Of a DNA stretch of 64,000 nucleotides, positions 30,160 through 37,036 are shown one piece after another; the stretch's first letter is position 1; each line of letters starts with the position of its first letter. Source of the DNA: Sphingobacterium zeae (GTDB lineage Bacteria; Bacteroidota; Bacteroidia; Sphingobacteriales; Sphingobacteriaceae); NCBI RefSeq assembly GCF_030818895.1, contig NZ_JAUTBA010000001.1:5146001-5210000 (forward strand), read 5' to 3'. Made by a program: the position numbers and the translations under genes. The notes below the pieces were generated by a model. That model saw only the letters and a list, made by a program, of their open reading frames with translations. It ran no database searches and was not told the DNA's origin.

Positions 30160-30184
30160 CACACCTTCTGAGGAGAAGGGTTGA

Positions 30185-30258
30185 GGTCTGGTAGTTCAGC
30201 TGGTTAGAATACATGCCTGTCACGCATGGGGTCGCGGGTTCGAGTCCCGTCCAGACCG
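30185..30258 (+). tRNA. tRNA-Asp (GTC), copy 1
   Basis: 74 nt. The 7-bp acceptor stem pairs GGTCTGG with CCAGACC, the anticodon loop is CTGTCAC (anticodon GTC), the T-loop is TTCGAGT, and the discriminator is G. No CCA is encoded: the G is followed by CTT, so it must be added after transcription. Confidence 0.97.
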
Positions 30259-30317
30259 CTTCAAAAGAGAAAGCAATCTCTTACGTTCTTTAACAAAATA
30301 AGTTTTTAAGATTTTTA

Positions 30318-30394
30318 GGTCTGGTAGTTCAGCTGGTTAGAATACATGCCTGTCACGCATGGGGTCGCGGGTTCGAGTCCCGTCCAGACCGCCA
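30318..30394 (+). tRNA. tRNA-Asp (GTC), copy 2, CCA encoded
   Basis: Body (30318-30391) identical to copy 1. The three bases after the discriminator are CCA (30392-30394), so here the 3' end is genome-encoded. It is 59 nt from copy 1. Confidence 0.97.
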
Positions 30395-30425
30395 AAAATT
30401 GTTAAAAACAATCTTTAAGATTTTA

Positions 30426-30499
30426 GGTCTGGTAGTTCAGCTGGTTAGAATACATGCCTGTCACGCATGGGGTCGCGGGTTCGAGTCCCGTCCAGACCG
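30426..30499 (+). tRNA. tRNA-Asp (GTC), copy 3
   Basis: Body identical to the other copies. It is followed by CTA, so CCA is not encoded. The lead-in TAAGATTTTA matches that of copy 2, pointing to tandem duplication. Confidence 0.97.
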
Positions 30500-30523
30500 C
30501 TAAAATTTTAAAAACACATTGTT

Positions 30524-30600
30524 GGTCTGGTAGTTCAGCTGGTTAGAATACATGCCTGTCACGCATGGGGTCGCGGGTTCGAGTCCCGTCCAGACCGCCA
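30524..30600 (+). tRNA. tRNA-Asp (GTC), copy 4, CCA encoded
   Basis: Body (30524-30597) identical to the other copies and followed by CCA (30598-30600). The spacer to copy 3 is only 24 nt. A terminator starts 3 nt later. Confidence 0.97.
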
Positions 30601-30602
30601 AC

Positions 30603-30640
30603 AAAAAAGCATCATTTATAATTAAGTGATGCTTTTTTTT
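30603..30640 (+). terminator. Terminator of the tRNA-Asp cluster
   Basis: A 12-bp stem (30603-30614 with 30627-30638; AAAAAAGCATCA and complement), 12-nt loop, and a T run. It ends the tRNA transcript. Confidence 0.88.
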
Positions 30641-30827: not shown

Positions 30828-33800
30828 TTACTCCGCTATCACCATAAATTCAGCACATGATGCATAATCATCCCCCCGTTGTGCGTTAAGTCCTGTAAAA
30901 CGGATATAACGTCCCTTAACAGGCTGCTCAAATCGAACCGTTTTTAGTTTTTTATTCCGTTCAAAAGATCCCGACATCACATCTTCCCAGTTCTTCCCAT
31001 CTTTACTCACCTGAATTTTGTAATCCTTAATATCACCATTCGGTCCATCCTGTCTTGGCAGGAAAGTGAAGCCCTTAATTGTTTTGCTACTTCCAGCGTC
31101 AAAATCAACCCAATGTGGATACTGTGCTACGGTAACCGAATACATCGTATGCCAAATCGAGGAAGGATCTCCATCCAATAGGTTCTTGGCATCACCTTCA
31201 CCAGTTTCCTCACTTGAAGCAAAGACCACTTCCATTGGAATAGTCTCGATTTTTGTGTATTGCTGTGTTACCTTTAATTTCTCATTATGCTGATACCAAG
31301 CGGTTAGGGTACCACCGGCCCGTAAATCAAAAGGTGCTTTGTAGACACTTGCTTTTGCGTTGTTCAAACGGTACAATACAGGCTCACTTTTATTTCCTGC
31401 CAGCATGGAAACCTCACCATTGGAACTTCTCACGATTGAAATTGGCGCATCTCCTGCAGTCGCTACCTGAACCTTCTCCATCATATCATTGTTCTGAATC
31501 GGACGGATAATAAAGCCTATAGACGTAGGCATCGCTTTCACGCGGTCTCTTTCCAACGGCGGCCCTTGTCCGCAGCTGTTGCCACCAAGCCCTGTTACGG
31601 CTGCATCAAGATGAACGTGTACCGCCCGAACTCTTTGGTAATTGATAAGGGTGCGGAGCAAAGGTCAACTCAAGCTCACTATAGTCCAAAGCGGATGTTG
31701 ATAAATGCTCTTTCGCAACAAAAACAACTCCCTGTCCGGCATTATTTGTCAATGCTGTCCAACGCACATCCTCATTGTTGCTCATATTTTGTGGATTAGG
31801 CCATGGCACGAACTGATCTTTTACGGTGCTTTTGTGCCATTCAATAAATTGTGCTGTTTTCCGATCAGCATAATTGTTGATCGGTCCACGTCCATAATAA
31901 CTATAGTTGCTGTATTCAGCAGGCAGTTGCAAAGAATAGCCGAGCCGCGCTAAAACCACACTCGTATTATTGGATGTAATACGCGAAGATAATTCTATGG
32001 AGCCATCCTTATAGATTGTCCAGATCTGATTGCTTGTAAATTTAAAGTCGTCCTCACCAAAAGGCTTATCTGTATGCTCTTTAAGGGTGTAGGTTCCCGA
32101 AGTTCCCCCCAACAAAGACGCACCATAAGGGGCTTGCGATTCAACCGTAAACGCCAATACAACTGTTCCATCTTTCTTGGTATAACTGTTTGAAGACAAA
32201 ACCTTATGTTGCAGGTTATGCAATCCTTTTTCAAACCATTGTTGGTAAGCCCAGTTGTCATTGTCAACCGGAGCACGTAGTGCATCCAATTTTGGTCCTT
32301 CGCCATCGCGGATAACGTGTTTACCGGCATATGTTAGATTATATATCGAGCCTGTTTTATTATCAAACTTCGCGATAAACTGATCTCCCTTCACCACCTG
32401 CAAATCACCTTCTTTGGAAAGTACCGGAGCTCCACCTTTTGCAACAGATGAAATCAGCGGTTTCCTTTCAGCAGCTTTAACAAAAAGCTGTTCCTCCATC
32501 TGGACAAAACCTTTTGTTGCCCATGGCCTATCTTCTTGGAGTATAAACTGCACTTTCACAAAATATTCCGACCCCGCATCTAACTGCGCATAATTTATCG
32601 GCAATGTAAGCTGCTTGCGTTGGCGCGCTGTCGGCAAATCCGCTGTGCTGATCGTGCCTTTGCTATTTGTTACTTCTACACCGTCTTTGAATAACGACCA
32701 CTGTACCTGATAATCGGATAGATCCTTAAAATAATTTTTATTAAATAGTTCAATTTTACCCTGCTGCATATCAACAGCCTTTACGCCCGCATTTTGGTAC
32801 ACTTTCTTTACCTCATAATACTGCGGTTTAGGTCTCATATCGGCAAAGATCAACCCGTTGTTAACAAAGGTGCCGTCATTGGGTTTATCTCCAAAATCAC
32901 CACCATAGGCCAGGAAGCGTTCTCCGGTCTTTTTATCATAATAGTACATGGCCTGATCGATCCAATCCCATATGGCGCCGCCCATAAAGAAGTTGGTCGA
33001 TTCGATGGCTTCCCAATAATCAATTAAGTTACCAACAGCATTCCCCATGGAATGTGAATATTCAGAGATATGGTAGGGATATTTTAATTTATACGTCCCC
33101 TTTACAGCACCTCTGACCCAGTCAATCGAGGGATATTGGTTGGACCCCATATCTACGATTGCATTGTTACGTTCGTATTGAACAGGTCTTGATGTATCAA
33201 TTTTCTTGATGGCCTGATAGGCTGCTACAAAATTATCGCCGGGACCAGCTTCGTTTCCTAAAGACCAGATGACGACAGCCGGATGGTTAATGGTCGAATG
33301 CACCATTTCAATATTACGGGCCACATGTGCATTCTTCCATTCAGGAACATGCGAGAGAGATTCTTTGCCATAATAATACTCATGACTTTCAATATTGGCT
33401 TCATCCTCCAGATAAATTCCATATTTGTCGCATAGGTAATACCAATACGCAGGTTCAGGATAATGCGAATTACGAACGTGGTTGATATTGGCCCTTTTCA
33501 TCAACTTTACCTCAGCTTCCATCTGTTCTCTCGTCACCACTTTCCCATGCTCCGGGTTAGTCTCGTGCCGGTTGACCCCTTTTAGCTTAACTGTTTTGCC
33601 GTTGATATAATAATAACGGCCAGCTAGCCCAAATTCATCATCCTCCGCTTGGGTATCTTTAATTTCAACCTTTCTAAATCCAACATAGGTGGAAACAGTC
33701 TCAACAGTTTTGTTGTTCTTATCCTTCAACTCAGCCACCAAAGTATACCGATACGGTAACTCTGCCGACCATTTATTCGGATGTTTAACATTCAGTGTCG

Positions 33801-34875
33801 CGGCTACGCTATTAGAAGCCTGACTGCCCAGGGTAGGAACAAGTGTAGATGCTTCGGTTTGGTCTACAAGCGTATTTTCGTCACTATATAGCTTATTCTT
33901 ATAAAGTGAATACACTAGTTTATAGCCCTCGGCCTGCTTGCTGCTAAGATTGCGTATCGTGCTGGTAATTTTCAACGAACCATTTTCGTAGTTGCTATCC
34001 AAATCTGGAATAGCTGCCAGATCACGAATCTGCACTTTTGGCGTAGAAGTCAGGGAAACATCGCGAAATATACCGGGCAGCCTGAACATATCCTGAGCTT
34101 CCAAAAAGGAAGCATCGGAACTACGATAAACTTCAACAGCCAACACATTTTCAGCACCCTTTTTTAAGTAAGGTGAGATGTTAAAAGACGCAACATTTCT
34201 TGAATTTTTAGAAAAACCGACATATTTGCCATTGATCCATAGGTAGAAAAAAGAATCCACCCCATCAAAATTGATAAATACCTCGCGGCCGTCCCAGTCG
34301 GTAGGGACTGTAAAATTGCGTCGATAAGATCCAACTTCATTACGATAAACATAGGTCGTCCAATCCGCCGCTGGTGTACGCATTACACCACCTTTCCAAT
34401 CGCCGACCTTTACCTGATGATGAAAGATAACTCGCTGGTTGGTATAAATAGGCACGCCATACTTTAAGCTTCCATCTTTTTGTATACCAAAAATATTCCA
34501 GCTCATGGGCACAGGCACCGATTCCCAGCCACCAACATCATATGTAGGATGATAAAAATCCTTTGGCCGCTCCTCCGGAGTCTTCACCCAGTTGAATTTC
34601 CAGGATCCATTGAGCGAAATCCAATAGTTACTGTGCTCGGGAAGTACTTTTCTTGCACTTTGCACGTTTTTAAAAGAATAGAACGAAGCATGTGGCAGTT
34701 CTTTATTCAATGATAATAGTTGGGGCGATTCCCATTCATTCCCTTTTGGAGACTGTGATGCTCCATACTGAAAACCGTCGATAGCAGATGTGGTGGTCTG
34801 CCCTATCGTGAAACTTGTGTTCAGAGATAGCAAGGAGGCTAGAATCGTCGAAAAAATAAGAGATGTTCTTAACAT
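30828..34875 (-). pseudogene. Beta-galactosidase (GH2) with C-terminal discoidin domain, one frameshift
   Basis: A large exported glycoside hydrolase of about 1,350 aa when read through a frameshift. From ATG 34875: signal peptide (LLSLNTSFTIGQ), GH2 sugar-binding and Ig-like domains, TIM barrel with acid/base E542 (SLGNEAGP) and nucleophile E605 (ISEYSHSMGNA), a C-terminal small-chain beta-sandwich, then an F5/8 type C (discoidin) domain. The frame breaks near 31625: the first part ends with an unrelated tail GGTRSS and a stop, while the next frame supplies the family continuation AVHVHLDAAVTGLGGNS. Removing one C from the plus-strand CCC at 31625-31627 rejoins them. Either a real mutation or a sequence error. 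Both active-site residues lie before the break. Confidence 0.88.
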
Positions 34876-34905
34876 AATGTCGTTGAGCAATTTAGACTAG
34901 GAAAC

Positions 34906-35232: not shown

Positions 35233-35267
35233 AAAGGGTTACAATTTAAGCATTAAGGTATTAATAG

Positions 35268-35842
35268 GTGAGTAAATTCAGTAAATCAGTCCTGCTAGAA
35301 AATGATGAGCAAATCATTGAAGGCATCAAAGACGGCAACAGCTTCGCGATAGATGCTATCTATAAGCGTTATTATCCGTCTATAAGCCATATGATCTTGC
35401 AAAATAATGGAAGGGAGGATGAAGCGAAAGATATCTTTCAAGAAGCTGTCATTGTGCTCTACGATAAAGTTTCCAAAGGGAACTTTGAGCTCAGCAGCAA
35501 ACTTAAAACATATCTCTACTCGATTTGCAGAAGGCTTTGGCTTAAGCAACTCAATCGTGCTGGTTTTGGCAATAGTGACATTCGCGGTTATGAAGATTCC
35601 TTGTTTGAGGAAGAAGATCTACACAACAGCATCAAGAACTTGAAAAAAAGTTCGACCAAATGGAGCTTGCCTTAGAGAAAATGGGAGAACCCTGTAAGAC
35701 AATCTTACACGATTTCTACATCTTGAACCATTCGATGCAGGATATCTGTGAAAAATTTGGTTATACCAATACAGATAATGCCAAGACTCAGAAGTATAAA
35801 TGCCTGCAACGGCTGAAAAAAATATTTTTTTCAACAGATTAA
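35268..35842 (+). pseudogene. ECF-type sigma-70 factor, frame broken in this sequence
   Basis: A sigma factor with both parts readable but in two frames. The first frame (GTG start at 35268) has region 2: IIEGIKDGNSFAIDAIYKRYY and EDEAKDIFQEAVIVLYDKV, up to LYSICRRLWLKQL. The second frame, joined near 35620-35650, supplies region 4: LEKMGEPCKTILHDFYI and the helix-turn-helix SMQDICEKFGYTN, ending CLQRLKKIFF. In the second frame, sensible helix sequence (QQHQELEKKFDQME) begins at about 35627, so loss of 2 nt from ACACAAC (35621-35627) or gain of 1 nt would restore the gene. A7 at 35643-35649 is another possible slip site. The start codon GTG is the only one that fits. It lies 15 nt upstream of an anti-sigma-like protease, its likely partner. 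Confidence 0.82.
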
Positions 35843-35857
35843 AATTTGAGTAACACC

Positions 35858-36973
35858 ATGGGAACAATGAATCAAAAAGAATTTTTCGAATTAGCAGATC
35901 AATATCTTCGCGGCGAATTATCGACCGAGGAACAGGCTGCATTTGAATCTTTCTGCGCTGAACACCCCTCCTATGCTGCCCAATTACAACAACACCGCGA
36001 ATTTGTTGCCCATATGAAAGAAACTAACCATCGTCTAGATTTTAAAAATGCATTGGCACAATCAGCAAAAGAATACCATAAAACCCAAAGTAAAACGACC
36101 AAGGTCGTACCAATGAAGCAATCAACGGTGATTTCACTTTGGGAACGTATCAAAGCCAGTTCTTTGGTCGCTGCAGTAGTCGCGGTATTTGCGGTATTTG
36201 GCACATTATGGTTGAGCGGTTATTACAGCACCCTCGAAAAGGCTTCTTCCGATTACAGTGCATTGCGTAGAGACATGAACAATGTCAAAAAGAACGTCAA
36301 TGCCCACAATGCTGCAATCAAAGATATCAACGACAAAAAATCAGTAAAAGGTACGGAGAGCCAATTTGGCGCAACAGGCTTTATGTTGACAACAGATGGT
36401 TATGTTGTCACTAATTACCACGTCGTTAGTGGTGCCGATTCGATTTATTTGCAAAATAATAAAGGCGAATCCTATAAAGCACAAATCGTACATACTGATC
36501 CAAGCAAAGACTTGGCTATTTTGTACATCGCTGATAAGAACTTTAAGAAAGTTAAAAGCTTACCGTACACATTCAAAACATCAACTTCAGATCTTGGGGA
36601 AGATATCTACACCATCGGCTTTCCCCGAGATGAAGCCGTATATGGTCAGGGATATTTAAGTTCATCAACAGGTTATGCCGGTGATACGATTGCATATCAG
36701 ATATCCGTACCGGTTAATCCAGGTAATAGTGGCGGTCCTGTATTGGATAGCAGAGGTAACGTTATTGGTATTATTTCTGGAAAGCAACGCGGAATTGATG
36801 GTGCAGCCTTTGCTATCAAAACAAAATCAATCTTGAATGCTTTAGCGGACATTCCAACGGATTCTTTGGTTACGGGTCTTAAGATCAACAAAAAGAACAG
36901 TTTGGCAGGTTTACCAAGAACAGAACAAATCAAGAAAATGCAAGACTATATCTACATGGTTAAAGTCTATTAA
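35858..36973 (+). CDS. Membrane-bound HtrA-type serine protease with anti-sigma-like N-terminus
   Basis: A 371-aa protein with three parts. Residues 1-90 are cytoplasmic and anti-sigma-like (FFELADQYLRGELSTEEQAAFESFCAEHP, no zinc motif). A membrane helix follows (about 100-121), then a short coiled coil (to about 155), then a trypsin-like S1C domain with the full triad: H188 (TNYHVV), D218 (SKDLAI) and S291 (GNSGGPV). No PDZ domain is present. ATG 35858 or 35867 are both possible. It starts 15 nt after the sigma factor gene. The inference is that the N-terminus holds the sigma factor and the periplasmic protease links its release to envelope state. A strong terminator follows. Confidence 0.85.
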   Translation: MGTMNQKEFFELADQYLRGELSTEEQAAFESFCAEHPSYAAQLQQHREFVAHMKETNHRLDFKNALAQSAKEYHKTQSKTTKVVPMKQSTVISLWERIKASSLVAAVVAVFAVFGTLWLSGYYSTLEKASSDYSALRRDMNNVKKNVNAHNAAIKDINDKKSVKGTESQFGATGFMLTTDGYVVTNYHVVSGADSIYLQNNKGESYKAQIVHTDPSKDLAILYIADKNFKKVKSLPYTFKTSTSDLGEDIYTIGFPRDEAVYGQGYLSSSTGYAGDTIAYQISVPVNPGNSGGPVLDSRGNVIGIISGKQRGIDGAAFAIKTKSILNALADIPTDSLVTGLKINKKNSLAGLPRTEQIKKMQDYIYMVKVY

Positions 36974-36982
36974 GCTGCATTT

Positions 36983-37036
36983 ATAACCCATAAAAAAAGG
37001 CAACGTTGAAAAACGTTGCCTTTTTTTATGGGTTAT
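36983..37036. terminator. Bidirectional terminator, 25-bp perfect inverted repeat
   Basis: Arms 36983-37007 and 37012-37036 are perfectly complementary around a GAAA loop, with A and T runs inside the stem. It separates the convergent protease (plus) and peroxiredoxin (minus) genes. Confidence 0.92.

Follow-up and report, generated by a model that had tools for sequence, protein, structure and literature searches.

An ECF sigma factor gene of this Sphingobacterium genome is followed directly by a gene that encodes, in a single chain, a likely anti-sigma domain, one membrane helix and an HtrA-type protease with an intact catalytic triad. The pair is conserved in four Bacteroidota families, and its predicted promoter is shared with genes for small PG1828-like lipoproteins. 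The genome analysed, that of a Sphingobacterium close to S. siyangense and S. multivorum, is a single contig of 5.6 Mb, and the window, the whole stretch of 64,000 nucleotides that was studied, covers its positions 5,146,001-5,210,000 (Table 1). On balance, and only just, we favour a self-contained envelope-stress switch as the explanation of the locus as a whole.

The sigma gene lies directly upstream of the fusion gene in 186/186 loci from the four families; 187 loci were read, and the one left out of the adjacency count ends with its contig. H188, D218 and S291 are invariant in all 187 sequences. Within the family to which this genome belongs, a search of 151 genomes yielded strong matches (E ≤ 1e-75) in 135 and two more as pieces at contig ends; the rest comprised 11 genomes with a general HtrA-like match only and three with nothing. 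Across 395 genomes of the phylum, long matches were restricted to this family and to families f2, f9 and f10, and in the remaining members the profile mainly matched protease domains of the HtrA type, of which a few also had the C-terminal tail. The pairing is more than a chance arrangement, as it is found in nearly all sampled members of the family, with the sigma gene upstream wherever the contig reaches. Retention of the pair outside this genome, on which the original prediction had been staked beforehand, was thus observed. At the two f10 loci read (L104 and L109, from two genera), helices 1 and 2 of the N-terminus are missing and the sigma gene is still adjacent. Separately, L122 and similar proteins (for example in G284, G226 and G488) match in the protease and the conserved tail and not in the N-terminus; L122, the one read, begins with a signal-peptide-like segment, and a search of it for a sigma gene found none.

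Judged by its sequence features, namely regions 2 and 4 and an ECF-type promoter, the upstream gene classes as an ECF sigma factor (sigma-70 family, group 4). Region 2 matches PF04542 (Sigma70_r2) with an E value of 2e-8, above the cut-off, as it does in the intact relatives, whose sigma factors are 180-204 aa long. TIGR02937 matches both pieces of the gene, which is frameshifted in this assembly. Region 4 superposes on region 4 of SigL and SigW (Z of about 10, rmsd 1.8-1.9), and the Pfam region-4 models match it below threshold only.

A de novo search for spaced words recovered GGTT-N17-GTAT upstream of the sigma gene in 91 of 108 non-redundant loci, and almost never in shuffled sequences. 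Expressed as a regular expression with a spacer of 14-16, the promoter consensus is present at 175 of the 186 loci, with a spacer of 15 in 161. Only 4 nt separate the end of GTATTA from the start codon in the window, and the element lies 3-4 nt ahead of the sigma start codon in 155 loci, suggesting that the sigma mRNA is leaderless. A scan for sigma-70 promoters gave fewer matches than in shuffles.

The 12 fixed bases of the promoter (GGTTAC-N15-GTATTA) occur exactly three times in the 5.6-Mb genome, once ahead of the sigma gene (35237-35263) and twice at 1.34 Mb, ahead of two neighbouring lipoprotein genes. The latter are tandem paralogous PG1828-like genes of 74 aa outside the window (G000:C1:1340283-1340915; L215 and L216), each with its own promoter copy. 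Scored against the NCBIfam model for PG1828 (NF050142, cut-off 50), one copy reaches 70 bits and the other 44. None of the other 15 sites in the genome, each with one mismatch, lies ahead of a convincing target, and most fall inside genes. The predicted target lipoproteins are 60-75 aa long and contain a lipobox and D-[ST]-rich repeats that differ strongly between species.

Among relatives, a divergent lipoprotein gene with its own promoter copy lies beside the sigma gene at 90 of 186 loci, and 107 of the 113 opposite-strand promoter sites lead into a lipoprotein gene. Within Sphingobacterium, where lipoprotein and sigma genes are not linked, 38 of the 40 sites read precede such a lipoprotein gene. 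Linked and unlinked promoters agree, so linkage by itself does not account for the motif they have in common. Because the promoter recurs ahead of lipoprotein genes across relatives, linked or unlinked, both this target and autoregulation of the sigma factor through its ECF-type promoter are well predicted. At least one exact site was found in 68 of 69 sampled genomes with the system, versus 2 of 12 without it, a contrast that is expected in part, because genomes without the sigma gene also lack the sigma gene's own promoter. The sigma factor appears to control little besides its own operon and the small PG1828-like lipoproteins. PG1828 of Porphyromonas gingivalis is a triacylated, immunostimulatory lipoprotein (PMC10126205, PMC7352132), and no description of its control by a sigma factor was found in the literature searched. 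In two other genera (L275, L277), the gene for a DUF4294-like secreted protein, assigned to its family by eye, carries the full promoter motif and is perhaps a lineage-specific member of the regulon. As a general member it was rejected, the motif being absent before the DUF4294 gene of this genome.

Table 1 Features of the sigma factor and protease unit, in positions of the window
Feature	Position	Strand	Basis
ECF-type promoter of the sigma gene (predicted), GGGTTAC-N15-GTATTAA	35236..35264	+	De novo motif
ECF sigma factor gene, frameshifted	35268..35843	+	Sigma70_r2, TIGR02937, six-frame reading
Private 2-nt insertion breaking the sigma frame	35621..35622	+	Alignment with relatives and genome G142
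Putative anti-sigma/HtrA fusion gene, 371 aa (P0001)	35858..36973	+	
Cytoplasmic N-terminal domain, residues 4-80	35867..36097	+	AlphaFold2 model, NF052375
Single membrane helix, residues 103-121	36164..36220	+	Hydropathy 2.2 over 19 residues; model helix 90-119
Periplasmic coiled coil, residues 126-159	36233..36334	+	Model and heptad positions
S1C (HtrA/DegS-like) protease domain, residues 165-335	36350..36862	+	Trypsin_2, Foldseek, triad
Triad codons H188, D218 and S291	36419, 36509 and 36728	+	
Conserved C-terminal tail occupying the PDZ position, residues 336-371	36863..36970	+	Conservation, model
Terminator-like hairpin of 20 pairs, end of the two-gene unit	36987..37032	+	

The fusion gene has an alternative start at 35867, which is favoured by relatives. 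An AlphaFold2 model of the protein, built from 40 relatives, predicts three helices in the N-terminal domain (residues 6-17, 23-35 and 37-80), with a pLDDT that is mostly at or above about 90 in residues 1-70 and is 79 in residues 71-80. The zinc motif Hx3Cx2C, which is optional in class I anti-sigma factors, is absent, with one Cys present. The single membrane helix of the original prediction agrees with the hydropathy profile, in which no hydrophobic stretch precedes residues 103-121, and the coiled coil that it placed behind the helix was recovered both in the model and in the conservation of the heptads. Hydrophobic residues occupy the core positions 133, 136, 140, 143, 154 and 157 in 94-100% of the 187 sequences, and the coiled coil fits an oligomeric protein.

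A complete trypsin-like domain without PDZ, with the triad at the three residues named above, had also been described, and both points held. Trypsin_2 matches residues 172-305 (E = 5.5e-26), and a Pfam scan of the fusion protein found no PDZ domain. The best Foldseek match of the protease fold was DegS delta-PDZ, with Z of about 20 to HtrA1 and DegS. The domain has the trypsin fold, the His-Asp-Ser triad and the GNSGG motif by which HtrA/S1C proteases are recognised, and it departs from them in the missing PDZ domain. The 36-residue tail that stands in the PDZ position contains a helix (354-362) and a strand (365-370), with pLDDT of 90-96, and its mean column conservation is 0.72, compared with 0.75 for the protease and 0.60 for residues 1-30. 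This conserved tail may substitute for the regulatory part of a PDZ domain. As a side observation, PHROGs family 11383 (phage proteins, function unknown) matches residues 64-335 of P0001 with an E value of 1.1e-25, a span that begins ahead of the membrane helix and takes in the protease; this suggests that proteins of similar layout are borne by phages.

Weak profile similarities mark the N-terminus of the fusion as a likely anti-sigma domain, which would bind the sigma factor. The NCBIfam anti-sigma model NF052375 matches 11 of 40 members, below its cut-off (best E value 1.1e-6, residues 13-119), and zf-HC2 matches 3 of 40. When the whole genome was searched with a profile built from the N-terminus only, the gene itself came first (E = 5e-29), followed by three matches at E values of 0.6-1 that are individually insignificant. 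All three fall in the N-termini of membrane proteins whose genes directly follow an ECF sigma gene; two of these are FecR proteins, and the third carries CarbopepD_reg_2 and TonB_C domains. These matches, together with the helical model, are in line with the anti-sigma-like segment that had been proposed. Profile comparison of the N-terminus with E. coli RseA gave no match. A profile search of the N-terminal alignment against solved structures was set aside, since only nuclear receptors were among the best matches, a coiled-coil-like chance similarity.

A joint model of the sigma factor and the N-terminus was obtained by reading through the sigma stop in a close relative, where both genes lie in one frame; it reached a pTM of 0.75, a value that carries no interface score. 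A fold search with this model matched sigma chains, with no anti-sigma chain among the matches listed, and rmsd was about 9-25 Å where both sigma domains were aligned. Of the 25 top-ranking inter-protein pairs from mean-field DCA, 16 fell in residues 1-90, where 5.9 were expected. In an MI test that used entropy-matched protease columns and shuffling within clades, 41 of 50 were observed versus shuffle means of 37-41, which is no excess. Coevolution of the sigma factor and the N-terminus was dropped as an argument, as it gave no signal above shuffles once clade structure was controlled.

The anatomy of the fusion fits a form of regulated intramembrane proteolysis in which the anti-sigma factor contains its own site-1 protease. 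The ECF sigma factor would be kept at the inner membrane by the single-pass fusion, with the cytoplasmic three-helix domain acting as anti-sigma factor and the periplasmic part forming a coiled-coil-mounted HtrA-type protease. An envelope signal, probably an unfolded or mislocalised envelope protein, would stimulate the protease; disturbed lipoprotein export could alternatively be the signal. The protease would then cleave its own stalk or that of a neighbouring subunit, between membrane and protease (site 1), followed by cleavage of the membrane helix by an RseP-type protease (site 2). Finally, the freed sigma factor would act on its own operon and on the PG1828-like lipoprotein genes through GGGTTAC-N15-GTATTAA promoters. 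The pair, the domain order, the intact triad, the shared promoter, the predicted lipoprotein targets and a site-2 protease gene can be read directly from the DNA, and the genome contains two site-2-protease-like genes, one of them RseP-like with PDZ domains. The binding of sigma, the signal, self-cleavage and the site-2 cut are inferred.

Self-cleavage has a known parallel in HtrAw of Brevibacillus, a membrane-anchored HtrA protease that sheds its own N-terminal membrane anchor when given substrate (PMC5359297). HtrAw differs in having a PDZ domain, on which its autoprocessing depends, and in that no anti-sigma domain is described for it (PMC5359297). That no PDZ domain is present here is what speaks most strongly against carrying the HtrAw model over unchanged. 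No cut site was recognisable. Coevolution at the level of shuffles, the failure to match RseA and the f10 proteins without helices 1 and 2 also count against the switch.

The fusion could instead be an anti-sigma factor whose protease works but does not cut itself, sensing or degrading an envelope protein while a conformational change or a different site-1 protease frees the sigma factor. The FecR-type anti-sigma factors of this genome, which have no fused protease domain, and the other HtrA-type proteases present are consistent with this account, as is RsgI9, in which the S1C-like domain is described as polysaccharide-binding and autocleavage takes place in a separate periplasmic domain (PMC12203970). 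A triad invariant in 187 sequences would be unexpected in a pure sensor, yet it fits any active protease, and we consider such a non-self-cutting protease unlikely, though worth keeping in view.

In a lipoprotein homeostasis loop, the PG1828-like lipoprotein would be a substrate or an inhibitor of the protease; its excess would keep the protease quiet and the sigma factor bound, and its shortage or a block of lipoprotein transport would free the sigma factor. The strong divergence of the lipoprotein repeats between species speaks against a loop of this kind, and the lipoprotein being practically the sole target besides the operon itself speaks for it. Taken as a separate account we find it improbable; the loop may instead form a step within the envelope-stress switch and be no rival to it. 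The strict adjacency at 186/186 loci, the helical cytoplasmic domain ahead of a single membrane helix, and the position of all three next-best N-terminal matches behind ECF sigma genes weigh against a further alternative, namely that the N-terminus is not an anti-sigma domain and that the fusion is a membrane protease co-operonic with the sigma gene and only a member of its regulon. To this last account, for which the anti-sigma profile scores under the curated cut-off, the unmatched RseA and the f10 proteins without helices 1-2 could be cited, we give very little credence.

The envelope-stress switch that we favour resembles the RseA/DegS/RseP system with sigma-E of Escherichia coli in its ECF sigma factor, its single-pass inner-membrane anti-sigma factor, its DegS-type protease, the site-2 protease in the genome and the envelope proteins in its predicted regulon. 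Unlike that system, it has one chain, lacks PDZ and carries the 36-residue tail instead, and its N-terminus is not alignable to RseA. The fusion protein scored 64 bits against the DegS equivalog TIGR02038 (cut-off 423) and 94 bits against the MarP equivalog NF033740 (cut-off 250), which places it outside both. The original prediction held that anti-sigma factor and protease are always separate in known systems, a claim contradicted by RsgI9 of Clostridium thermocellum, a membrane anti-sigma factor with an S1C-peptidase-like domain outside (PMC12203970); the fusion of the two as such thus has a precedent. RsgI9 differs in being of the SigI type and not ECF, with its cognate SigI not identified, and in having a separate autocleaving periplasmic domain; in other RsgI proteins, CBM or GH domains are present (PMC12203970). 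No RsgI model was found among the Pfam and NCBIfam matches of the present protein and its partner is an ECF sigma factor, which sets it apart from the RsgI family. The Bacteroidales barrel anti-sigma factors of the EcfO type are alike in their Bacteroidota ECF sigma factor and large extracytoplasmic domain, and differ in a barrel that reaches the outer membrane and in that no protease is described (PMC9308784).

In the literature searched, we found no description of the pairing with an ECF sigma factor, of a triad invariant in 187 sequences, of the lack of PDZ, or of the narrow regulon and its promoter. A survey places a class I anti-sigma domain next to just 6% of the ECF sigma factors in Bacteroidetes (PMC7406223). 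We propose tentatively, as a possibility somewhat short of an even chance, that anti-sigma factor and site-1 protease are united here in one molecule with a self-cutting stalk and a minimal regulon, forming a lipoprotein-homeostasis or envelope-stress circuit in several Bacteroidota families. In one family the pair is near-core; its promoter is defined, its predicted regulon is tiny and the active site of its protease is known, which makes sigma release a simple question to test with a single point mutation and a reporter. The pair further offers a first candidate for the regulator of PG1828-type lipoproteins, which in an oral pathogen from this phylum are known to stimulate the immune system strongly (PMC7352132).

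The original prediction had placed an ECF sigma factor gene 15 nt before the fusion gene. The order and the distance (stop at 35843, first ATG at 35858) stand; in this assembly, however, the sigma gene is split between two frames. Six-frame reading located region 2 in 35268-35675 (135 aa, GTG start) and region 4 in a different frame that ends at the same stop. The break is a 2-nt insertion at 35621, by which CTACAACAG of the relatives becomes CTACACAACAG in the window. The sigma gene is a single unbroken frame in all relatives read, including a genome with a 98% identical fusion protein, and a programmed frameshift was ruled out, as each relative read has one intact frame. Nearby, a GH2 gene on the minus strand (30828-34890) is split by a private 1-nt insertion at 31622, and its counterpart in genome G142 runs through 1355 codons in a single frame. 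A base-level assembly error is suggested by the presence of two private frameshifts within 4 kb; for both, assembly error or recent decay is possible. Between genes, the interval 30181-30604 is a locally repeated stretch of about 0.1-0.3 kb with overlapping self-similar matches to G142.
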